Source: Sunxiuqinia dokdonensis (GTDB lineage: Bacteria > Bacteroidota > Bacteroidia > Bacteroidales > Prolixibacteraceae). Taken from it: 46,006 bases of DNA. The stretch lies in contig NZ_LGIA01000214.1 of assembly GCF_001270965.1 (NCBI RefSeq), positions 1 through 46,006 of the forward strand, written 5' to 3'. The position numbers and the translations under genes were made by a program. The notes beneath the pieces were generated by a model, which made no database searches, was not told the origin of the DNA, and worked only from the letters and a program-made list of their open reading frames with translations. Shown piece after piece: positions 8,086 through 20,118 of the stretch. The stretch's first letter is position 1, and each line of letters begins with the position of its first letter.

Positions 8086-10260
8086 TCAGATTTTGACGAT
8101 GCTCGGTTCTTCACTTTTGCCGAAGAGTTTAGATTGTTGCAGCATTTGAATGGAGACGTCGGCAATATTATACAGCAAGGTAAATTGCATTTTGCTGAAA
8201 CTGTGTTCGGCTGATTGCATGTGTTGACGAATCTGATTCTGGATGGCCTTCAGGTCGTTGTTCGTCATCGGATTGGCTGAGGAGCCGGAGTGATCGTCAC
8301 GCTGCAAGGCTTCCAGAATTTGTTTGGCAAAATGGATTGATTCTGCGTTGGGCGTTTGCTGTTGCTCGCGGTGGGCACCAAAGGCCGAGAGGTACGACAG
8401 CAGAGCATGGTTCAGGTAGGTTAACGTAAAAGCTTGTTGCTGAAACTGCTGACGTTTTTGTGGTTCCACTTGCATGTCTTGCCAGGCCAATACCAGGGCG
8501 TTGTCGGCCCGGTGTGCTTCGCGGCGAGCAATCCGGTAGTCCAAGTCATCGCCGGTGGTCGGTTGCTCATATTCGAGAATGATGGCCCGAAAGTAGGCCG
8601 TGTTTTTAATCAGTGCGTGTTCCAGTAACTTGGGCAACCGTTTATGTTGCCAGTCGGGCCACAACAGCCGGACGGTGGCAAAGGCCAGGGCGGCGCCAAT
8701 CAGGGTGTCCAGCAGTCGGGGCCACATCAGGGCCACACCTTTGTCGGCAATCAGGTTGAAGGCGCTGAGTACAAAAATGGTGATGAAGATCACTGAAATG
8801 GCATACCTTCGGCGCAGCCAAACAAAAAAAGCAAAGGCAGCAGACAGCAACAAGATCAGTTGGCCAGCCGTTGTTGGCAGCAGCTGAACGATTAGCACAC
8901 CTCCAATGACACCGCTGATGGTCCCCAGTATTCTTTGAAAAAGGCGACGACGGGTTTCACTATAACTGGGTTGGCACACAAACAGACTGGTCAAAATAAT
9001 CCATTCGCCTTTGGCCAAATCAAAGCCTTCGGAAATGGCAAAACCAATCAAGAAACATAAGCTGAGCCGGATGGCATGTCGTAGCCGCGGATGATTAAAG
9101 TTGAGTTGGCTGCGCAGTCGTTCTCCAATGGTTCGTTTGTCTTTTGCCAGCTGGGGCGTGATACTCCTTTGTTGGTTTTCGCTTAGATTGACCAACGACT
9201 GGTGCGAGCGGGTGAGGTTTCGAACCAGCAATGCGAGCGGGTGTGCCTGGCTGGCGCCGCGTTTCTCCAGTTGGTCGTTCAGCACGTTGACCACCCAGCC
9301 CAGCGATACCGGGTGACGGTAGGGAATGCCGGTCAGCAGGCTGTTGGCCAATTGTTTGGTTGCCTGCGACAGCTGAACCAGCGTTTGCCCAATGCCTTCC
9401 AGCAATTCATGGTTTTGCGGGTCGCTGCTCAGCAAATCGTACCGGTCGTGGCTCGATGCGGCCCGTTCATGCAAACCCTGCAACAACATGAAATAACGGA
9501 GATAGGGTTTCAGCGGGCCATCGTCCTGAAGGGCGTCGGAGTAACTGTTGAGCACTTCTTTACAGCCTTCCAGCGCATCAACGACTTGCACATTTTGCAG
9601 AGCGAGCTGGTTGCGCAGTTTCCCTTGCAGTGCTTCGTCGCTGGGGAACAGGCTGGCTTTGTAAACGAGGTATTTTGACAGGGCCAGAAAGCCGCGGGCT
9701 AGGCGTTCTTCGAGCAAACGCCAGGGGTGTAGGTATAAGAAAGCTAGCGAAATGAGGCCATAGAACAAAGCTCCTGCCGGCAGCAGAATGGGTTGCCAGT
9801 ACCAAGCAGGACTGATTTCGGTGCCCAGCATGGCATAGATGCCTACGAGGATTGCGCCGAAGGTTACCCCGCGATAGCGTTCGCTAAGTCCGCCAATCAG
9901 TAAAAAAACAATGGTGGAAACTGCAAGCCCAAGTCCCATTACGATGGGGTAGGGACGAAGCAACTCAACGGCCAGACTCGAGATCCCGAAACTGACGACC
10001 TTTAAAGCCAGCGATTTGATGCGGCCTTTGGGGTGATCATCTGTCTCGGACAAGGCGCCGGCTAAGGCTCCCAGCGCCAGGGTGATGGCCATAAACGACT
10101 GGCCGGCAACAACAAGCGGAACAGCTAGCAGGGCAATGGCAAAAGTGGCTTTGGCTGCCATCAACAGGTCGGGCCTGCTGAGAAAAGCCTGACGATAGGC
10201 GTTGTACCATGCTCGGCTTGTGAGTCGTTCGGCCAGCCGTTGGGTTTTATTTTTTGTCAT
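8086..10260 (-). CDS. FUSC/YccS-type inner-membrane protein
   Basis: A 724-residue integral membrane protein. It has two membrane halves: hydrophobic helices at about residues 20-190 (starting LLMAAKATFAIALLAVPLVVAG) and again at about 385-530 (IRLSLCFLIGFAIS..., LILLLSAAFAFFVWLRRRYA), each followed by a cytoplasmic helical domain. This duplicated layout is that of the YccS/YhfK/aromatic-acid exporter (FUSC) superfamily. Function is unproven; relatives are proposed efflux proteins. I chose the ATG at 10260 because a TAnnTTTG element at 10291-10298 overlaps the longer alternative beginning at 10302. Nearest neighbours are the M20 dipeptidase downstream and an acyl-CoA dehydrogenase gene ending 175 bp upstream with its own terminator. 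Confidence 0.85.
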   Translation of the reverse strand: MTKNKTQRLAERLTSRAWYNAYRQAFLSRPDLLMAAKATFAIALLAVPLVVAGQSFMAITLALGALAGALSETDDHPKGRIKSLALKVVSFGISSLAVELLRPYPIVMGLGLAVSTIVFLLIGGLSERYRGVTFGAILVGIYAMLGTEISPAWYWQPILLPAGALFYGLISLAFLYLHPWRLLEERLARGFLALSKYLVYKASLFPSDEALQGKLRNQLALQNVQVVDALEGCKEVLNSYSDALQDDGPLKPYLRYFMLLQGLHERAASSHDRYDLLSSDPQNHELLEGIGQTLVQLSQATKQLANSLLTGIPYRHPVSLGWVVNVLNDQLEKRGASQAHPLALLVRNLTRSHQSLVNLSENQQRSITPQLAKDKRTIGERLRSQLNFNHPRLRHAIRLSLCFLIGFAISEGFDLAKGEWIILTSLFVCQPSYSETRRRLFQRILGTISGVIGGVLIVQLLPTTAGQLILLLSAAFAFFVWLRRRYAISVIFITIFVLSAFNLIADKGVALMWPRLLDTLIGAALAFATVRLLWPDWQHKRLPKLLEHALIKNTAYFRAIILEYEQPTTGDDLDYRIARREAHRADNALVLAWQDMQVEPQKRQQFQQQAFTLTYLNHALLSYLSAFGAHREQQQTPNAESIHFAKQILEALQRDDHSGSSANPMTNNDLKAIQNQIRQHMQSAEHSFSKMQFTLLYNIADVSIQMLQQSKLFGKSEEPSIVKI

Positions 10261-10290
10261 TCGGTATGTTGTTTTTTTATGTGTGGCTTT

Positions 10291-10298
10291 CAAAATTA
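10291..10298 (-). promoter_or_regulatory. -7 promoter element of the FUSC gene
   Basis: The minus strand reads TAATTTTG (TAnnTTTG), about 31 bp upstream of the chosen ATG. It decides the start. Confidence 0.5.
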
Positions 10299-10371
10299 AC
10301 AAAAAAGAGTGGACGCCGTTTTCTGCCCGTTCGTAATGTTCAATGCGAATGATGTGTTTTATTTTATTCTG

Positions 10372-10410
10372 AAAAAAAACAAAAGCACCAATCTCCCGGA
10401 TTGATGCTTT
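10372..10410 (-). terminator. Rho-independent terminator of the acyl-CoA dehydrogenase gene
   Basis: On the minus strand AAAGCATCAATC pairs with GATTGGTGCTTT around a short loop, followed by TGTTTTTTTT. It lies 25 bp past the stop codon. Confidence 0.85.
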
Positions 10411-10434
10411 CGTGATATCTTGTTTGTGCCTATT

Positions 10435-11979
10435 TTAAAGCGAATACTTCAGCCACGAGCTGTTTTCCTGATAATCTACCACAGCAACATCGTTTGTTTG
10501 CAGGTGGAAACTGCTCATGGTTTGCTGAATTTCCTGCCGAAGCATGTTCAGGCCACCTTCAATCATGTCGCGTCTGAAACCCTCGTCAGCCAGTCGGTGA
10601 ACCATGTCCATGGAGATGACTCGGCCCAACACCTGGCCAAGTTCAACCAGTTTTCGCTGCGGAAGTTGTAGGTCCATTTCAAAATTGAACAGCTCCTTTA
10701 ATTGATCAGCTGAACGGTTGGTCAGTTCATATTCCTTGAGGAAATTGAATAAATTTCGTTGTTTTAGTTTGCGCATTTGTTTTACGATTCCCTCTGAAAT
10801 TTGTGCGTACAGAATATCATTTGATCCTTCAAAGATCTGGAACGGGCGGCTATCGACAATGCCTCGGCCTCCCAAGTGGCTCAGTTTGTATGCTTCGGCA
10901 CCCACCAACTGGGTGATGGATTGGGCAGCCTGCTGCATCAGGTCGGTTACCACCGATTTTACGGCGTTGGCTTCAATTCCAATGCCGGTCAGGTCGTTTT
11001 CTACGCCGGCTTTTTTGGCGCTGTTCGAGCACATGGCCGAGCAGATGGTGAACGAAGCTTGCAGCTTAGACAGGCGTTCCTGAACCTGGTCATAGGAAAA
11101 CAGGCTTTTGCCGCCAACGAAGCGCTGCTTGCAATGGCTAATGGCTTCGTCCATAATTCGGTGAATGAATCCGATGGCCATGCCCGGGAACTGCATGCGC
11201 GAGCGGTGCAACAGGTCGAGCATCATTTTCACTCCGGTTGAATGGGGTTGTAAGTGCTGAACTTCAGGGATTTTTACGTCGATGTGGTTTCGCCCGTATG
11301 GAATTTGATACAAGCCCAGGTTGTCGTAAAATTCTTCCACTTTAATGGATTGATTGGGCTGGGTCACATCGCAGATAAAAAAATCGATGTCGCGTTGCAA
11401 ATCGCCATCGCTGTTTTTTCTTCGGGCGGTCAACAGCCAAAAGTCAGCCCATCCGGTCAGTCCGGCCCAGTGTTTCTTTCCTTTGATATGGAACTGGCCT
11501 TCTGATTCCTGAAAATGCGTCTGCATGCTCAAGGCATCACTTCCAAAGTCGGGCTCGGTTATCATCAATCCGCCCATGTTCCGATGTTCAATAAAGCGTT
11601 TGAAAACAGAGGCTTTCGCTTCTTCCTGGGCGTATTTTCCTACCGGTTGTAAAAATAAAGCAGAATTAATTCCAAAGGTAAGTGATAGTGCCAGCGACTC
11701 GTACGATGCTGCTTCCAGAAGGGCCAGGTTTTCATTCATCAGGGCGCCTCGTCCGCCATAAGCTTTGGGAATACCGATTGAAAGCGGGTTGCATTCCATG
11801 ATTTCGCGCAGTACAAAGGGCGGAAGGCCCCGTTGCTGGCTGTATTTGTCAATATCACCCCGCTGGTGATAGACTTGTTTCATTTTTTCTTTTAGTTTCC
11901 CCAAAAATTGCTGGATGGGTTCCTGTGTGTTTTTTTTGTTCTCCGGAGAGTTCGTCTTCATCTCAATAATCTCATTCAT
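10435..11979 (-). CDS. Acyl-CoA dehydrogenase family protein
   Basis: FAD-dependent oxidation of an acyl-CoA (or related thioester), with electrons going to ETF. The 514-residue protein has the family order: N-terminal helical part, MITEPDFGSDALSM (middle beta domain; variant of the TEPxxGSD signature), KHWAGLTGWADFWLL, then the C-terminal helices with RSRMQFPGMAIGFIHR and FQIFEGSNDILY, where the Glu of FEGSND is at the usual catalytic-base position. It is about 120 residues longer than a typical short-chain enzyme, with a C-terminal extension. I took the ATG at 11979 (MNEIIEMK); the frame stays open 54 codons further upstream but that part is unlike the family. An AraC gene lies just upstream on the same strand. 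It could serve fatty-acid beta-oxidation together with the acyl-CoA synthetase at 29139 (inference). Confidence 0.87.
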   Translation of the reverse strand: MNEIIEMKTNSPENKKNTQEPIQQFLGKLKEKMKQVYHQRGDIDKYSQQRGLPPFVLREIMECNPLSIGIPKAYGGRGALMNENLALLEAASYESLALSLTFGINSALFLQPVGKYAQEEAKASVFKRFIEHRNMGGLMITEPDFGSDALSMQTHFQESEGQFHIKGKKHWAGLTGWADFWLLTARRKNSDGDLQRDIDFFICDVTQPNQSIKVEEFYDNLGLYQIPYGRNHIDVKIPEVQHLQPHSTGVKMMLDLLHRSRMQFPGMAIGFIHRIMDEAISHCKQRFVGGKSLFSYDQVQERLSKLQASFTICSAMCSNSAKKAGVENDLTGIGIEANAVKSVVTDLMQQAAQSITQLVGAEAYKLSHLGGRGIVDSRPFQIFEGSNDILYAQISEGIVKQMRKLKQRNLFNFLKEYELTNRSADQLKELFNFEMDLQLPQRKLVELGQVLGRVISMDMVHRLADEGFRRDMIEGGLNMLRQEIQQTMSSFHLQTNDVAVVDYQENSSWLKYSL

Positions 11980-12143
11980 TCGTTGTTCTTTTAAAGCATG
12001 GCAAATTAAACCTCGCAAAAGTTCAGAACACTTGATCTTCGATATTGTTCTTTTCCGGTTGAAATTAGATTGCCTCTTATTATGTGAGCTTGTTGACGGC
12101 CAGAGCTGGAGCTTGTCGGCTGGTTCCGATCGTAGTTTCAACT

Positions 12144-13037
12144 TCAGCTCGCAGAATTAACAGGTTGATTGGCCTGGTGAAATTGGTTTTGATACTGAAC
12201 CGGCGACAGGGATGTTGTGCGTTTAAAACAGCGGTTGAAGTTGGATAAGTTGTTAAAGCCACTCTCAAAACAAATTTGTGATACGCTTTGCTTGCCTTCG
12301 AGCAAGAGTTTGCAGGCGTAGCCAATGCGCATTTCATTGACGAATTCGATAAACGATTTGCCGGTTTTTTCTTTGAAGTAGCGGCAAAAGGCCGTGGTGT
12401 TCATTCCAATGTGGCTGGCAACCATATCGAGTTTAATGGCTTGCCGGTAGTTGGCATTAATAATGTGCATCACTTTGTCGAGTCGTGTGGTTGACCAATT
12501 GTCCAGGTTGAGGCGATAGCTTTTGCTGGCCAACAACTTGTATTGGTTGGTTTTAGACAGTTTTTCGAGAATGTTTAGGAATAGCAAGGTACGCTCCAAT
12601 CCTTTCTTTTTTAGTAGTTTTTTCAGCTGGGGGCCCAGGCGGTCGGCCACCGATTTCTGAAAACTCAAACCGCGGGCAGCGCGTGACAGCAAATCACGGA
12701 TGGCCAAAAACTCCGGATAGTTTTCCAACTGGTCTTTGAAAAAGTGAGCTGGAAAATGGATGACAATGGCGTTGACCCGGTAGTTGGGATCATTCAGAAA
12801 GAAGGCTTCGTCGTTTTTCCAAAAATGTGGAAGGTTGGGGCCCAGCAGAACCAAATCGCCATCCTGAAAATCCTCGGCGTGGTCGGCTACAAATCGTTTC
12901 CCAAAGCTCCTGATCACGTAAACCAGCTCATATTCAGAATGAAAATGCCAGGGAAAGGTGAAATGCGGAAAATCATCCCACTTAATATTGAAGGAGTTTG
13001 TTCCCCGAAAGCTGAGTTGTTCGTGCATAATTTTCAT
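12144..13037 (-). CDS. AraC family transcriptional regulator
   Basis: A 297-residue DNA-binding protein. The N-terminal half is a cupin-type sensor domain (FPWHFHSEYELVYVIRSFGKRFV, GDLVLLGPNLPHFW), as in AraC regulators that sense sugars or metabolites. The C-terminal about 100 residues hold two helix-turn-helix motifs (ASHIGMNTTAFCRYFKEKTG; QICFESGFNNLSNFNRCFKR followed by SLSPVQYQ). I chose the ATG at 13037; the preceding in-frame codon start is a TTG two codons earlier. It is divergent from the large ATP-grasp sensor gene, with facing TAnnTTTG promoters in the 199-bp gap, so it may regulate that gene, the acyl-CoA dehydrogenase downstream, or itself. Confidence 0.93.
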   Translation of the reverse strand: MKIMHEQLSFRGTNSFNIKWDDFPHFTFPWHFHSEYELVYVIRSFGKRFVADHAEDFQDGDLVLLGPNLPHFWKNDEAFFLNDPNYRVNAIVIHFPAHFFKDQLENYPEFLAIRDLLSRAARGLSFQKSVADRLGPQLKKLLKKKGLERTLLFLNILEKLSKTNQYKLLASKSYRLNLDNWSTTRLDKVMHIINANYRQAIKLDMVASHIGMNTTAFCRYFKEKTGKSFIEFVNEMRIGYACKLLLEGKQSVSQICFESGFNNLSNFNRCFKRTTSLSPVQYQNQFHQANQPVNSAS

Positions 13038-13061
13038 GGGCAATTATTCTGGGATTGAATG

Positions 13062-13236: not shown

Positions 13237-16200
13237 ATGAGGGGCAGGTCAGGAAAAAATAAACAGGAACAAACCGCCGGCAATGAGCCGGCCATTTCCG
13301 TACACGCGAGTCAACTGGCGGCTATTGGGCCAGCTATTGTGAGCCAGGTTGAGCGAAAGCCGAAACTGCCGACTTTGCTGAAAGCGGCGGCCAACAAAAT
13401 TGTGGAAGGAGCCTCGCCGGCGGTCATTGCGGTTGCCATTACTTACAATAAGCAGGAGTTTTTGAGCAAGGGCTTTAAACATTCTGCCATGGTTTTGCGC
13501 AGTTTAATTGAAACGTCGGAAGATCCCGAAGGCGTCATCGAAGTTTATTTCAACACGGATTTGGTGGGCTCTGAAAATATGCAGGATTACCTGGCTGTTA
13601 AGGAACACTTGCCGTTTTGGCGTACGATTATCAGCGGAGCGATTGCCAATATCAGGCTAAAAGACTTGACTCACCGGCATGAAGAGCGCAAAAAGGAACT
13701 GACCGGAATTGACCGGGCCAACGAGATTTTAACGAACTCGACCACGCTGTCTGAAAGTTTAGCCGAATTGTGCGAGTTTCTGCCCCATGCTTTTCAGCAC
13801 GCCAAACATGCGCAGGCGAGAATCGTTTACAATGGGGAAAGCTACACCAGCAAACGATTTAAAGAAAGCCAGTGGAGCCTCAGGCGAACTTTTGAAACGC
13901 CCGATCAAAGGCAGGGCAGCGTTGAAATTTTTTACACCCGCCAATTTCCGGATGCTGATGATGGCCCTTTTCTGAATGAAGAGTGCAATTTTTTGAAAAA
14001 TCTGAGTTCGCTCATTTTGGGCACCATCAGCCAATATGCGCTCAAAGATCTCCTGTTTGAAAATACCGAACGATTGAAAGAACTAAAGGGCATTAACAGC
14101 ACCTATGAAATTCTGAAACGCTCAAGAAAGCTGGAAGACAGCCTGCCGCAAATTTGTGCCATTATTCCTGCTTCATTTCAATATCCTGAGGATACCGTTG
14201 TACGCATCAATTATGGGGGAAATAGCTATAAATCTGTTGGTTTTAAAGAGACTCCCTGGATGATTAAGCAGTTTTTTCAGACGGATACTACGAAAAAAGG
14301 CAGCATTGAAGTGTTTTATACCCGACAGTTTCCGGAGCTTGACGAAGGCCCTTTTTTGAAGGAAGAGCGCAACTTGCTGAATAATTTGGCTGAGCTGATT
14401 GCCGGGCGGGCCGTGAAAAACATGTTTACCCGCTTGCATCGTGTGAATACGGAACGGCAGAAAGAACTTCAGGCCATCAATCAAACTTCAAAAATTATTG
14501 AAGAAAGCAACAGTGTTGACGAAGCGCTGCAGCGCATTTGTAACATTTTACCGCAGTCGTGGCAGTACCCGAAATTTACCGCTTGCCGGATCCGTTTCGA
14601 ACGGCGCGAGTACATCACTTCCAATTTTGACGAAACACCGTGGGTGCAGCAGGAAGGCTTGATGACGATCGACAATAAAAAAGGGAGCATCGAGGTGTTT
14701 TATCTCAAACAATTTCCCGATGAACAGGAGGGCCCTTTTTTGCGCGAAGAACGTGACCTGATCCGAAACATCAGCAAGTTGGTCAGTGGCTACCTGAATA
14801 GTCACAAAGGTCTTGAAATTATCAACAACAAAGGTGTGGTGATCAGCAGCCAGCACCGGTCCGACGAATTTCGAAAATCGCTGGTGCGCACCAAAAAGCC
14901 GCTGCAACTTTATTTTAACCAGCAGTCGCTCGAGAAGTATGTCTATCTCGATATGATGAAGTACAAAGTGAAGCACATCTTGTTTGTTTCAACCCTGTAC
15001 GATGCGTTTATGCTCGAAAGTGAAGATTCATTTTTTGAGAAATTTCTGGGTGAAATCTACCAGTACAGCCTGTTTTCGCTTCCGCGAATTACCGGTGTCT
15101 CGTCGGCTGAAGAAGCGCTCGAATTGCTGGAGACCACCAACTTCGACCTGGTCATCCTGATGGCAGGCCTCGACCGGAAGGCGCCGATTGATTTGAGCGA
15201 ACAAATCCGCGATAAAAATAAATCCATTCCAATTTATTTGTTGCTCAATAAAAAGAGCGACCTGAAGTATTTCGAAGGCTTGCTTCCGACCATCCACTCC
15301 GTCGATCAGTTGTTTGTTTGGAATGGCGACTCACTCATTCTTTTCGCCATCGTCAAATCGATTGAGGATCGGGTGAATGTTGAAAATGATACCCGCGTTG
15401 GCTTGGTGCGCGTGATTTTGGTGATCGAAGATTCGCCCTTGTACTACTCCAAATACCTGCAATTTTTATATTCTATTGTGTTCGACCAGGTGCAGCAAAT
15501 TTTGCCTGAGGTGGAGAAAAATGAGCTCGACAAAATCGGACGCATGCGTTCGCGCCCCAAAATTTTGCTGGCAAAAAATTATGAGGAGGCCACCGCAATT
15601 TTCAATAAGTACAAAGATTTTATTTTGTGTGTGATTAGCGATATGGAATTTGAGCGTGCCGGGCGAATGGATAAAAAGGCAGGAGTCAGTTTTATTCAAT
15701 ATGCCAAGGCCAATATCCACAAATTGCCGGTTGTGCTTCAGTCGTCGGAGGTAAGTAACCGGAATTACGCCAAAAAGCTCGACGCTGTTTTTCTGGATAA
15801 GAATTCGGAAACGCTATTGCAGGATTTGAAGCATTTTTTGAAAAATTATTTGGGCTTCGGAAATTTTGTTTTTCTGAATGCCAAGGATGAAAAAATAGCC
15901 GTCGCCAAGTCGTTACGCGAGTTTGAGACCCTGTTGCAGAAAATACCGGATGAGTCGTTTTATCTTCATGCCCTCGAAAATAATTTCTCACTTTGGCTGA
16001 TGGCCCGGGGCGAAATCCAGCTGGCTCGAACCCTGAACCCGGTTCCGGTCAATTCGATCGAGAACGTGGGCGAGTCGCGCAAATTTTTCCTCGAAACGAT
16101 TAACCGATATCGGGAGGAGAAGAAGAAGGGACGAATTATGGGCTTTGATGAAACCGCCACGCTTGATGAGCGCAATATCGTGTCGTTCTGCGCGGGTTCG

Positions 16201-17856
16201 CTGGGAGGAAAAGGACGCGGATTGGCTTTCATCAATGTGTTGATTTATAACTACGATTTTTCGGCCCTGGCGTCGCAGATTAATATTTCCACACCAATTA
16301 CCGTTATTGTTGGCACCAATGAGTTTCAAAACTTTATCAACAGAAATAACCTGATCGAGGTGGTTACTGACCCGGATATCAGCTACAGTGAACTTCGAAA
16401 ACGCTTTTTTGAGGCCGAACTGTCGAGTTCGCTTATGCGTAAGCTGAAAATTCTGGCCAATCAAATCGACAAACCCATTGCTGTTCGCTCATCCAGCACC
16501 TCCGAAGATTCAATTACGCATCCTTTTTCGGGCGTGTTCGACACCTACATTATTCCCAACAGCAAGCAAAACAAGCGTAAGGTCGCTGAACATTTGTCCA
16601 ATGCCATCAAGATGGTGTACGCTTCAATCTATTCTGACGGGGCCCGCACGTATTTTGAAGCCATTCAGCATCGGGTGGAAGATGAAAAAATGGCCATCGT
16701 TTTGCAGGAATTGGTGGGCTCGTATCATGGCGACCACTATTATCCACATATTAGCGGGGTGGCCCAGTCGTACAATTATTATCCGGTGGCCGATATGAAG
16801 CCGGAAGAAGGTTTTGCCGTGATCGCCATCGGGCTCGGAACCTACGTGGTGGGAGGCTGGAAGTCGTACCGTTTTTCGCCAACCTATCCCAAGGTTTCGG
16901 TCTATGGAATCAAGGATTTGCTCAACAGTACCCAAGTGAAGTTTTACGGGCTGAATTGTACGAACCTTGACCTCGACTTACTGAACAAAGGCGAATTGGC
17001 CTCGCTCGATTTGCTGGATATCGAAGAAGCCGAAAAACATGGCACCCTGAAACATTGTGCTTCGGTTTACAACCCCGACAACGACCGCATAGAACCGGGG
17101 CTCGATACCTACGGACCGAGGGTTGTCAACTTTGCCAACATTCTGCAATACGAATACATTCCGCTGGCCAAAACCATTGATGCGATTTTAAATGCCGTTG
17201 AGGAAGCTTTTGGTTCGCCGGTTGAAATTGAATTTGCCGTTGATCTGACACCGGGCAAGCATGGTCTTCCTACGTTCTATCTGTTGCAAATAAAACCGCT
17301 GCTGGCCAGCCTCGAGTCGCATTATTTTGATTTTAATGCCATTGATCCGGAGAAAATGCTGCTTCGCTCGGGAATGAGCCTGGGGAATGGTGAAATCAAT
17401 AAAATCACGGACGTCATTTTTGTTGCTCCCGATAAGTTCAACAAGATGAAAACCATGGAGATGGCCGCCGAAATAGAATCCTTGAACAACAAAATGGTGA
17501 AGGAAAAGCGAAAGTATATTCTCATTGGGCCGGGACGCTGGGGCACACGCGACCAGTTTTTGGGCATTCCGGTCAATTGGGCACAAATATCGAATGCAAA
17601 GGTGATTGTGGAAACCAGCCTCGAAAACTTTCCGCTGGATTCGTCGCTGGGCTCGCACTTCTTCCACAACGTAACCTCCATGAATATTGGCTATTTTTCG
17701 GTGCTTCATCATTCTTCAACCGATGTGATTCGTTGGGATCTGTTGAACGAGCAAACCCTTGTTTCAGAAACAAACTACTTTAAACACGTACGTTTTAAAA
17801 ATCCGCTACGGGTGGTGATGAACGGAAAAACGAAAACGTCGGCCATCATCCTATAA
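13237..17856 (+). CDS. GAF-like repeats + two receivers + PEP/pyruvate-dikinase ATP-grasp protein
   Basis: A 1539-residue cytosolic multidomain protein. (1) Four tandem sensory modules at about 45-145, 147-267, 275-395 and 404-522. Modules 2-4 share a visible pattern: LP..(F/W)Q..., then (Y/F)...Y.S..F.E..W, then GS(V/I)E(I/V)FY...FP, then GPFL.EE. Module 1 is diverged. I read them as GAF-like. (2) A receiver-like domain at about 576-715 whose phosphoacceptor Asp is replaced (FDLVILMAG, Met642). (3) A second receiver at about 720-875 with the acidic pair in VIEDS (E731/D732), Asp802 in VISDMEF and Lys855, plus an insertion. (4) A pyruvate-phosphate-dikinase/PEP-synthase-type ATP-grasp domain, about 985-1350 (GSLGGKGRG; AVRSSSTSED with Arg1084; LLQIKPL). 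(5) A C-terminal domain with LIGPGRWGTRD. The phosphohistidine swivel and the PEP barrel are absent, so it cannot be a full dikinase. A LuxR gene follows by 18 bp. Confidence 0.85.
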   Translation: MRGRSGKNKQEQTAGNEPAISVHASQLAAIGPAIVSQVERKPKLPTLLKAAANKIVEGASPAVIAVAITYNKQEFLSKGFKHSAMVLRSLIETSEDPEGVIEVYFNTDLVGSENMQDYLAVKEHLPFWRTIISGAIANIRLKDLTHRHEERKKELTGIDRANEILTNSTTLSESLAELCEFLPHAFQHAKHAQARIVYNGESYTSKRFKESQWSLRRTFETPDQRQGSVEIFYTRQFPDADDGPFLNEECNFLKNLSSLILGTISQYALKDLLFENTERLKELKGINSTYEILKRSRKLEDSLPQICAIIPASFQYPEDTVVRINYGGNSYKSVGFKETPWMIKQFFQTDTTKKGSIEVFYTRQFPELDEGPFLKEERNLLNNLAELIAGRAVKNMFTRLHRVNTERQKELQAINQTSKIIEESNSVDEALQRICNILPQSWQYPKFTACRIRFERREYITSNFDETPWVQQEGLMTIDNKKGSIEVFYLKQFPDEQEGPFLREERDLIRNISKLVSGYLNSHKGLEIINNKGVVISSQHRSDEFRKSLVRTKKPLQLYFNQQSLEKYVYLDMMKYKVKHILFVSTLYDAFMLESEDSFFEKFLGEIYQYSLFSLPRITGVSSAEEALELLETTNFDLVILMAGLDRKAPIDLSEQIRDKNKSIPIYLLLNKKSDLKYFEGLLPTIHSVDQLFVWNGDSLILFAIVKSIEDRVNVENDTRVGLVRVILVIEDSPLYYSKYLQFLYSIVFDQVQQILPEVEKNELDKIGRMRSRPKILLAKNYEEATAIFNKYKDFILCVISDMEFERAGRMDKKAGVSFIQYAKANIHKLPVVLQSSEVSNRNYAKKLDAVFLDKNSETLLQDLKHFLKNYLGFGNFVFLNAKDEKIAVAKSLREFETLLQKIPDESFYLHALENNFSLWLMARGEIQLARTLNPVPVNSIENVGESRKFFLETINRYREEKKKGRIMGFDETATLDERNIVSFCAGSLGGKGRGLAFINVLIYNYDFSALASQINISTPITVIVGTNEFQNFINRNNLIEVVTDPDISYSELRKRFFEAELSSSLMRKLKILANQIDKPIAVRSSSTSEDSITHPFSGVFDTYIIPNSKQNKRKVAEHLSNAIKMVYASIYSDGARTYFEAIQHRVEDEKMAIVLQELVGSYHGDHYYPHISGVAQSYNYYPVADMKPEEGFAVIAIGLGTYVVGGWKSYRFSPTYPKVSVYGIKDLLNSTQVKFYGLNCTNLDLDLLNKGELASLDLLDIEEAEKHGTLKHCASVYNPDNDRIEPGLDTYGPRVVNFANILQYEYIPLAKTIDAILNAVEEAFGSPVEIEFAVDLTPGKHGLPTFYLLQIKPLLASLESHYFDFNAIDPEKMLLRSGMSLGNGEINKITDVIFVAPDKFNKMKTMEMAAEIESLNNKMVKEKRKYILIGPGRWGTRDQFLGIPVNWAQISNAKVIVETSLENFPLDSSLGSHFFHNVTSMNIGYFSVLHHSSTDVIRWDLLNEQTLVSETNYFKHVRFKNPLRVVMNGKTKTSAIIL

Positions 17857-17874
17857 TGTTTAAACCCCAGGAGC

Positions 17875-18525
17875 ATGATTCACATTGGAATATATAACGA
17901 GCATAAACTAATGGGCACGGGTCTGGCGGCCATTCTGGAGCAAGTCCCGGATTTTGATGTGCTGTTTTGCACCGAAAATAAGGACAAGCTGATGGTGTTT
18001 GCCCAAAACGGAAATCTGAATATTCTGGTGCTCGCCATTCATGATACTTCCGTGCGAACCATGAACCTGATTGTGCGCTTGTCGCTGATTAATCCCAAAG
18101 CCCGGCTGCTGGTCGTGTCGTTCGACAACAGTGAAGAAACCATTATCAAAATCGTGAAATCAAAAGCCAAAGGCGTTTTGGGGCGCGAAGCGTCGAAAAA
18201 GGAGCTGATTGAAGCCATTTACACCTTGCGAAATGGCTTCGATTATTTTACGAGTTCAATCAGCCAGATGGTACTCAACCAGTATATTAACAAGCTGGAA
18301 ACCCCGGAAAATAAAAACGAGGGCTTGGACAGTTTGAGCGAGCGGCAGATTGAAGTACTCCGGCTTTGGGGAAAAAGCTATTCGAACCAGGAAATTGCCG
18401 ATGAATTGTTTATCAGCGTCCGGACTGTTGATGCCCACAAAAACCACATCATGCAGAAGCTCCAGCTCAAAAGCATGGTCGAGTTGGTTAAATTTTCAAT
18501 TAAAAATAACATCATTGAAATTTGA
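17875..18525 (+). CDS. LuxR/NarL-type regulator with degenerate receiver
   Basis: A 216-residue regulator. The N-terminal 120 residues follow the receiver fold, but the key residues are changed: the acidic pair after strand 1 is Asn8-Glu9 (IYNEH), the phosphoacceptor position after strand 3 is Ala54 (LVLAIHD), and the conserved Lys is Arg104 (LGREAS). Phosphorylation in the normal way is therefore unlikely. The C-terminal part from about 150 is a clear LuxR helix-turn-helix (LSERQIEVLRLWGKSYSNQE, then IADELFISVRTVDAHKNHI). The gene starts 18 bp after the ATP-grasp sensor gene, almost certainly in the same transcript, so the two products probably work together. A stem-loop begins at its stop codon. 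Confidence 0.9.
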   Translation: MIHIGIYNEHKLMGTGLAAILEQVPDFDVLFCTENKDKLMVFAQNGNLNILVLAIHDTSVRTMNLIVRLSLINPKARLLVVSFDNSEETIIKIVKSKAKGVLGREASKKELIEAIYTLRNGFDYFTSSISQMVLNQYINKLETPENKNEGLDSLSERQIEVLRLWGKSYSNQEIADELFISVRTVDAHKNHIMQKLQLKSMVELVKFSIKNNIIEI

Positions 18526-18668: not shown

Positions 18669-18676
18669 TATTTTTG
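18669..18676 (+). promoter_or_regulatory. -7 promoter element of gdhA
   Basis: TATTTTTG matches TAnnTTTG. A TTTG at 18652-18655 lies 13 bp upstream, shorter than the usual -33 spacing. The leader would be about 80 nt. Confidence 0.5.

Positions 18677-18747: not shown

Positions 18748-20118
<1,371 letters not shown>

Follow-up and report, generated by a model that had tools for sequence, protein, structure and literature searches.

Several described systems come close to the locus reported here. It lies in a 46,006-nucleotide stretch of Sunxiuqinia dokdonensis DNA (contig NZ_LGIA01000214.1, positions 1 to 46,006, forward strand; this whole stretch is called the window) and comprises the genes for a 1539-residue protein, for a LuxR-type regulator and for NADP-specific glutamate dehydrogenase (GDH), gdhA. 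In the accessible part of a report on aspartate-less receiver (ALR) proteins, pyruvate phosphate dikinases (PPDK) are listed among the associated effector domains (PMC4395418). VadK of mycobacteria, according to its accessible description, is a histidine kinase that derives from a PPDK and interacts with metabolic enzymes (PMC13400623). The Dde_0604/DVU0246 cluster of Desulfovibrio, which appears in the accessible part of a nitrate fitness table, encodes a protein binding phosphoenolpyruvate (PEP)/pyruvate and a response regulator (PMC4001038). Prevotella gdhA transcripts were 2.2-fold higher under limiting ammonium, and the accessible text of the same 2017 study states that prior work left the regulation of these genes to be characterised (PMC5552732). 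Thus, the control of gdhA in Bacteroidales looks open in the available literature.

The 1539-residue protein, referred to as the large protein, shares with the ALR proteins a receiver without the phosphosite Asp and an association with PPDK. It differs from the ALR-PPDK cases, for which the accessible part of that report gives no mechanism or target, in its intact second receiver, its link to GDH and its LuxR-type partner (PMC4395418). As in VadK, a PPDK-type ATP-binding domain would be reused for metabolic regulation and the PEP/pyruvate barrel is absent; VadK retains a central domain with the catalytic His422, of which none was found in the large protein, and the large protein, unlike VadK as far as it is described there, has receivers, repeats and a LuxR-type partner (PMC13400623). 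The Desulfovibrio cluster likewise places a PPDK-type gene beside a response regulator gene; its protein, unlike the large protein, is annotated with a PEP-utiliser mobile domain, and GDH is unmentioned in the accessible part of that report (PMC4001038). The LuxR-type protein resembles the NarL/FixJ-LuxR regulators in joining a receiver to a GerE helix-turn-helix and in having a candidate palindromic site ahead of the gdhA promoter. It departs from them in that 49 of 50 aligned rows lack Asp at the phosphosite and in that no histidine kinase was found among the scanned neighbours. Rifampin phosphotransferase and HpeI (PDB 5hv3 and 9goj), which are enzymes acting on small molecules, resemble the ATP-grasp half of our model and, unlike the large protein, have no receivers.

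The LuxR-type partner and a candidate operator at gdhA

We favor, with a probability of roughly 0.7, the reading that this locus encodes a dedicated GDH control system in which the large protein provides the signal for activation of gdhA by the LuxR-type protein. A preliminary description of the window had proposed a signalling system formed by the large protein and an Asp-less LuxR partner, and had named gdhA merely as a target for footprinting. Our analysis supports such a system, and the linkage and the palindrome described below place gdhA at its centre.

The two open reading frames are both on the + strand and, as had been described, 18 bp apart. A scan of genome collections yielded 76 loci with the large gene; six without the C-terminal end were excluded and 70 were kept, several of which represent one genome present in two collections (e.g. 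L086/L228 and L044/L239; L and G numbers are our handles for loci and genomes). Among the 65 loci with at least 700 bp downstream, a luxR-type gene was the next gene in 46, with gaps of -41 to 187 bp, and in 41 of these the gap was at most 25 bp or the genes overlapped. The 19 loci without an adjacent LuxR gene include a tight cluster of rumen Salinivirgaceae. The pairing on which the preliminary description had made its proposal depend is therefore conserved. In a midpoint-rooted tree of 111 rows, a clade with SH-aLRT support 100 comprised 47 rows, of which 39 had LuxR adjacent, and two of the eight remaining clade rows were cut by contig ends; the GDH labels of this tree do not form a sample, rows L219-L238 having been chosen for the nearness of GDH and L239-L244 for its absence. 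The LuxR-type protein adjoining L243, outside this clade, was 36-37% identical. The pairing is thus essentially a feature of one clade and the large-gene family is wider, which indicates that LuxR forms a single output arm within a larger system. Two loci titled as a Spirochaetales metagenome-assembled genome (L057 and L060) carry a gene that is 56% identical and falls inside the Bacteroidales clade; these bins are perhaps misnamed or contaminated.

The helix-turn-helix of the LuxR-type protein was recognized as GerE (PF00196, E 7.3e-19), and its recognition helix is near invariant in the 50 aligned rows. The receiver phosphosite is Ala54 here, Asn in 41 rows and Asp in one, suggesting that the loss of Asp is a kept trait; the earlier view that this receiver cannot be phosphorylated normally agrees with these residues. 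A Pfam scan of four neighbouring genes (three at 8086-13043 and one at 18766-20118), with unlinked genes outside its scope, detected no histidine kinase, as the preliminary description had said. A canonical two-component system would have a kinase gene nearby, of which none was found among the genes scanned, and a phosphorylatable Asp in its regulator, which is lacking here.

The LuxR-gdhA intergenic regions share a 17-bp palindrome with the consensus TTACGTGnnnCACGTAA, which is present in the window as TAGGTGAATCACCTA. A rule-based scan found it in 24 of 35 such regions, against on average 1.4 (at most 5) in block shuffles of these regions and 2.0 (at most 8) in random stretches taken from the same loci. 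In 19 of the 24, a TAnnTT(T/A) element, which resembles the Bacteroidota -7 box, starts 37-39 bp after the palindrome, a spacing that was counted without a shuffle control and that would suit an activator. The palindrome halves change together in L065, L062 and L098, and one half alone changes in L060, L087 and L093.

The palindrome also occurs at gdhA genes that are unlinked to LuxR. When gdhA copies of linked and unlinked genomes were split at 70% identity to the gdhA of the window, the site lay upstream of 11 of the 16 copies at or above this value and of one of the 12 copies below it, where it was weak (Fisher p 0.002); the latter group consists of ten second copies and of the single copies detected in G018 and G288. 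In G122, G123, G118, G260, G272 and G307, the site stands at a gdhA on another contig than LuxR. In the draft genome G307, three contigs separately carry the large gene, LuxR and gdhA, and the site there is a perfect palindrome. G298 and G321 have no site, and their best LuxR matches are 29-32% identical.

The palindrome is largely confined to gdhA. In the own genome of 4.96 Mb, the 15-bp core with up to one mismatch occurs in one place and the pattern read backwards in 12; with no further copy at this threshold, other targets in this genome were rejected. Autoregulation of the large gene was likewise rejected, a palindrome lying upstream of it in two of 47 loci, weakly. In 140 family genomes, the exact pattern, which was derived from relatives of the genomes then counted, gave 20 sites in 19 genomes. 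Of these, 15 immediately precede gdhA, one closely follows LuxR where the contig ends, and four lie elsewhere: upstream of gltB, upstream of an aspartokinase-type gene, in the gap that separates hisG from a GH127 gene, and where a LysM gene starts. The backwards-read pattern matched 7 times in the forward and 10 times in the reverse direction, so a few stray exact sites are to be expected. Among the four sites away from gdhA, only that at gltB makes obvious sense. It is the second exact site of G133 (L248:5669-5685) and lies approximately 100 bp upstream of this gene, which encodes the large subunit of glutamate synthase; this hints at a small regulon for glutamate.

A co-change of recognition helix and half-site was also considered. 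Asp-Ala replaces Glu-Ser/Thr in the helix of the window and of L062 only, and no other locus than these two has AGGT on both palindrome arms. In the aligned set, G122, G123 and G118 have AGGT on one arm without the helix change, which weakens the correspondence and leaves it little weight.

These observations lead us to the following model. The LuxR-type protein would bind as a dimer to the palindrome, which ends 37-39 bp short of the -7-like element at gdhA, and would activate gdhA, the product of which assimilates ammonium into glutamate. Its Asp-less receiver would be switched by the large protein and not by phosphorylation, most simply through protein contact. We infer that the large protein senses a cell signal via its N-terminal repeats and ATP, ADP or AMP at its ATP-grasp domain, and that this signal is passed through the second receiver, the phosphosite of which is intact. 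In the least demanding form of this action, the large protein, binding ATP or AMP and other signals, would hold or release the LuxR-type protein. Our study thereby names a candidate gdhA regulator, its putative site and its target for Bacteroidales, and suggests a role for a family annotated in one record merely as a "PEP/pyruvate-binding domain-containing protein".

Linkage of the large-protein family to GDH genes

Among the 58 loci with at least 3 kb downstream, gdhA lay within 4 kb in 36 (32 with LuxR and 4 without). An even sample of the phylum comprising 118 genomes contained 19 genomes, besides that of the window, with a strong family match, the weak matches in G172 and G181 (E about 1e-4) having been dropped. 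A GDH-family gene lay within 3 kb in 17 of these 19 (the misses are G153 and G248), a count that takes in receiver-less forms and GDH-family genes down to approximately 30% identity with gdhA; for the receiver-bearing form alone, the count was 12 of 15. In an even sample of the order, the family was present in 71 of 79 genomes, and in 26 of the 68 non-own genomes with both genes the two were at most 5 kb apart (at most 1 kb in 23), where we estimate a chance expectation of about 1% or under. In Parabacteroides distasonis, the "PEP/pyruvate-binding" gene is divergent from gdhA and a second GDH gene follows a few kb away; the layout in Phocaeicola is the same. The gene order relative to GDH varies among lineages, which argues for function over mere inheritance. 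A search of a plasmid collection for the family returned three Bacteroidota records and one distant Fusobacteriota match, in whose region no GDH is listed. Among the matches listed by a literature search, to which subscription journals were mostly closed, none linked the family to GDH.

Since the link to GDH is wider than the pairing with LuxR, direct control of the GDH enzyme has to be taken seriously as an alternative. The large protein would then chiefly bind or modify the enzyme according to the ATP level, and LuxR would be a later, separate arm of one lineage. The family-wide linkage and the essentially single LuxR clade agree with this, as do the lineage differences in gene order, and none of 20 GDH-adjacent loci outside or at the edge of the LuxR clade, which were chosen for GDH adjacency, has an adjoining LuxR gene. 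VadK, a PPDK-derived histidine kinase described in the accessible text as interacting with metabolic enzymes, offers a precedent (PMC13400623). Against it, a shared promoter region in the divergent loci would serve transcriptional control equally well, and contact with the enzyme or its modification would have to be supposed. We consider control of the enzyme a real possibility, although less likely than not.

Several observations weigh against a dedicated system acting on gdhA through LuxR. In ten of the 58 loci, LuxR is present and gdhA is missing from the adjoining 4 kb. A further 12 lack both as neighbours; seven of the 12 come from one tight rumen cluster, two of them with LuxR approximately 4 kb further on. 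In the order sample, 42 of 68 genomes have no GDH within 5 kb, a number to which the breaks of draft contigs may contribute; none of 12 loci of the short paralogue of the family is beside GDH, and the 8-kb flanks of the gene in Prevotella sp. F0039 gave no GDH match. The palindrome rule finds no site in 11 of the 35 intergenic regions, and G117, G042 and G057 have none at a linked gdhA. G317 has site-like sequences at gdhA and no LuxR match at E 1e-25. To these must be added the uncontrolled spacing count, the backwards-read matches, the origin of the exact pattern and the one-arm AGGT sites given above.

Other arrangements occur in some loci where the family lies near GDH genes. A distant branch represented by L143:4509-13829 has proteins of 1010-1065 residues beside GDH-family genes 29-34% identical to gdhA, and similar long forms occur in L123, L124, L127, L131, L133, L139, L144 and L145. 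The only one of these that was scanned, L143, carries a nucleotidyltransferase domain (PF01909) C-terminal to PPDK_N, and its gene is followed by hisG and further histidine genes. Control of GDH by nucleotidyl transfer, in the manner of GlnD/GlnE, is conceivable in this branch. A form of 576-600 residues with the ATP-grasp and C-terminal domains and without receivers (L124:6913-8652; similar in L123, L131, L133, L139 and L154) usually adjoins a GDH-family gene and the longer nucleotidyltransferase-type form. In L128:10784-15857, a histidine kinase gene and a gene for a LuxR-type regulator with a good Pfam receiver score lie between the GDH gene and the family member; this is perhaps an ordinary two-component version of GDH control.

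Domains of the large protein and the remaining alternatives

The large protein consists of repeats, a pseudo-receiver, a receiver, a PPDK_N-type ATP-grasp domain and a conserved C-terminal domain, in this order (Table 1). Residue conservation was scored on 79 homologues, and the multi-domain composition given in the preliminary description was largely confirmed.

Table 1. Positions of the features in the window (protein residues where given).
Feature	Position	Strand	Basis
Large signalling-type protein, 1539 aa	13237-17856	+	Open reading frame list, Pfam, homologue alignment, model
Four tandem repeats of ~125 aa	13312-14871	+	Repeat comparison; "GAF-like" is the name given in the preliminary description
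Receiver 1, Asp-less, residues ~577-716	14965-15384	+	Pfam, alignment, model
Receiver 2, conserved E731/D732, D802, S836, K855, residues ~724-872	15406-15852	+	Alignment, model
PPDK-type ATP-grasp domain	16198-17301	+	Pfam, alignment
C-terminal domain without match among solved structures, residues ~1371-1539	17347-17853	+	Alignment, model, Foldseek
LuxR/NarL-type regulator, 216 aa, Asp-less receiver, near-invariant helix-turn-helix	17875-18525	+	Pfam, alignment
Candidate operator, palindrome ATAGGTGAATCACCTAA	18615-18631	.	Intergenic comparison, genome scan
Bacteroidota -7-like promoter element TATTTTTG, 37 bp after the candidate operator	18669-18676	+	
gdhA, NADP-specific glutamate dehydrogenase, putative target	18766-20118	+	Pfam

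The tandem repeats are real, R2, R3 and R4 being mutually 36-49% identical and R1 weaker; the Pfam scan of the 1539-residue protein called no GAF domain among them. With a profile built from the repeats of the window, 72 relatives, some of them cut by contig ends, had 0 to 4 copies, and 37 had four. This variable number suits a sensor part. A similar unit, PAS-type by eye, lies near the N-terminus of another protein in the same genome.

The first receiver gave a weak Pfam match (residues 617-670, E 4.9e-05, below the family cut-off). Its presumed phosphosite, column 642, is Met in 58, Thr in 19, and Ala and Trp in one homologue each, and is never Asp, in line with the earlier assignment. The second receiver, with no Pfam match of its own, has the acidic pair, the acceptor Asp, the switch Ser/Thr and the Lys of a receiver, as had been noted: E731 and D802 are invariant (79/79), D732 is found in 77 and K855 in 78 homologues, and position 836 is always Ser or Thr. 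Strands and helices alternate in this region of the AlphaFold2 model.

The ATP-grasp domain matched PPDK_N (PF01326, residues 988-1355, E 5.7e-37). Its residues K992, R1084, E1330, E1332 and Q1351, presumably the Lys/Arg/Glu/Gln ligand set of PPDK and PEP synthase, are invariant (79/79), and R1084, which the preliminary description had singled out, aligns with the AVRSS arginine of rifampin phosphotransferase. The other hallmarks of PPDK and PEP synthase were not detected, there being no Pfam match to the PEP-utiliser swivel or the PEP barrel anywhere in the protein; their absence had been pointed out before.

The 184 residues left after the ATP-grasp match gave no Pfam match. They include a well-conserved domain in which GxGRWG and SxG(S/T)H1474FF are invariant in 96 of 96 sequences, down to approximately 21% identity. 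The strand/helix order and the likeness of SxGSH to the TSH motif of phosphohistidine swivels made a disguised swivel a candidate, which was rejected: hhalign against 28 PEP-utiliser swivel sequences, a narrow set, gave a probability of 0.3%, and Foldseek of the domain model, which is confident when modelled alone (pLDDT 88.6, pTM 0.87), returned nothing from the PDB at E up to 0.001, and none of the 50 matches listed was a dikinase. As far as could be tested, the swivel, whose discovery by structure prediction would have spoken against the original proposal, is absent and a domain with an invariant His appears to take its place. The model of residues 545-1539 was fair to good (pLDDT 84.2, pTM 0.69). 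Its top fold matches were rifampin phosphotransferase, HpeI, PleD and PPDK, with low whole-length TM-scores; 5hv3 and 9goj were matched via the ATP-grasp half.

A bolder form of our model has the ATP-grasp domain charge receiver 2, directly or via His1474. It would be part of a phosphorelay without a histidine kinase in which the ATP-grasp domain is the kinase, either autophosphorylating (e.g. at H1474) or placing an acyl phosphate on D802. Acyl phosphate formation is a usual chemistry of ATP-grasp enzymes. In the 79 homologues, conservation of the ATP-grasp residues goes along with that of the receiver-2 pocket, and the invariance of H1474 extends to the most distant C-terminal domains. VadK, in the accessible text, is a PPDK-type ATP-grasp protein acting as a signalling histidine kinase (PMC13400623). 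Against a kinase stand the failure of both swivel searches, the receiver-less forms, which indicate that the ATP-grasp and C-terminal domains are useful without receivers, and the position that we equate with Arg337 of PPDK, which is Lys in 58 and Arg in 21 of the 79 homologues. The earlier suggestion of a kinase thus gained nothing beyond plausibility, and we regard it as rather unlikely; if true, it would add a further route to protein phosphorylation in signalling. The full sequence of events, in which the ATP-grasp domain and the C-terminal domain with His1474 charge D802 according to the ATP level and the charged protein switches LuxR and turns gdhA on, with no histidine kinase involved, is slightly more doubtful still. 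It would provide Bacteroidales with an energy/nitrogen sensor for glutamate synthesis.

The large protein could instead be a metabolic phosphotransferase encoded near GDH, with the receivers as regulatory extras. PPDK_N relatives are enzymes, one relative is annotated as a PEP/pyruvate-binding protein, and the stand-alone PPDK_N-type chain of HpeI (9goj), itself an enzyme, is among the best fold matches. Such a function is improbable in view of the missing swivel and PEP barrel, the receivers and repeats, the LuxR partner and the candidate operator at gdhA.

Equally improbable is that another regulator reads the palindrome and that the proximity of LuxR and gdhA is inherited gene order: G317 and a gdhA site (at least 6 of 7 pairs) in two of the 20 GDH-adjacent loci without adjacent LuxR (L225 and L227; genomes G278 and G281) would fit this, but a LuxR homologue (34-42% identical) is encoded elsewhere in each of G278, G281 and G307, and in LuxR-bearing genomes the site stands at gdhA genes located on separate contigs and is nearly absent from second gdhA copies.

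The genome of the window also encodes a shorter paralogue of the large protein, of 1022 residues and without the repeats. The translation of the gene beside it, read by eye, resembles malonyl-CoA acyltransferase.

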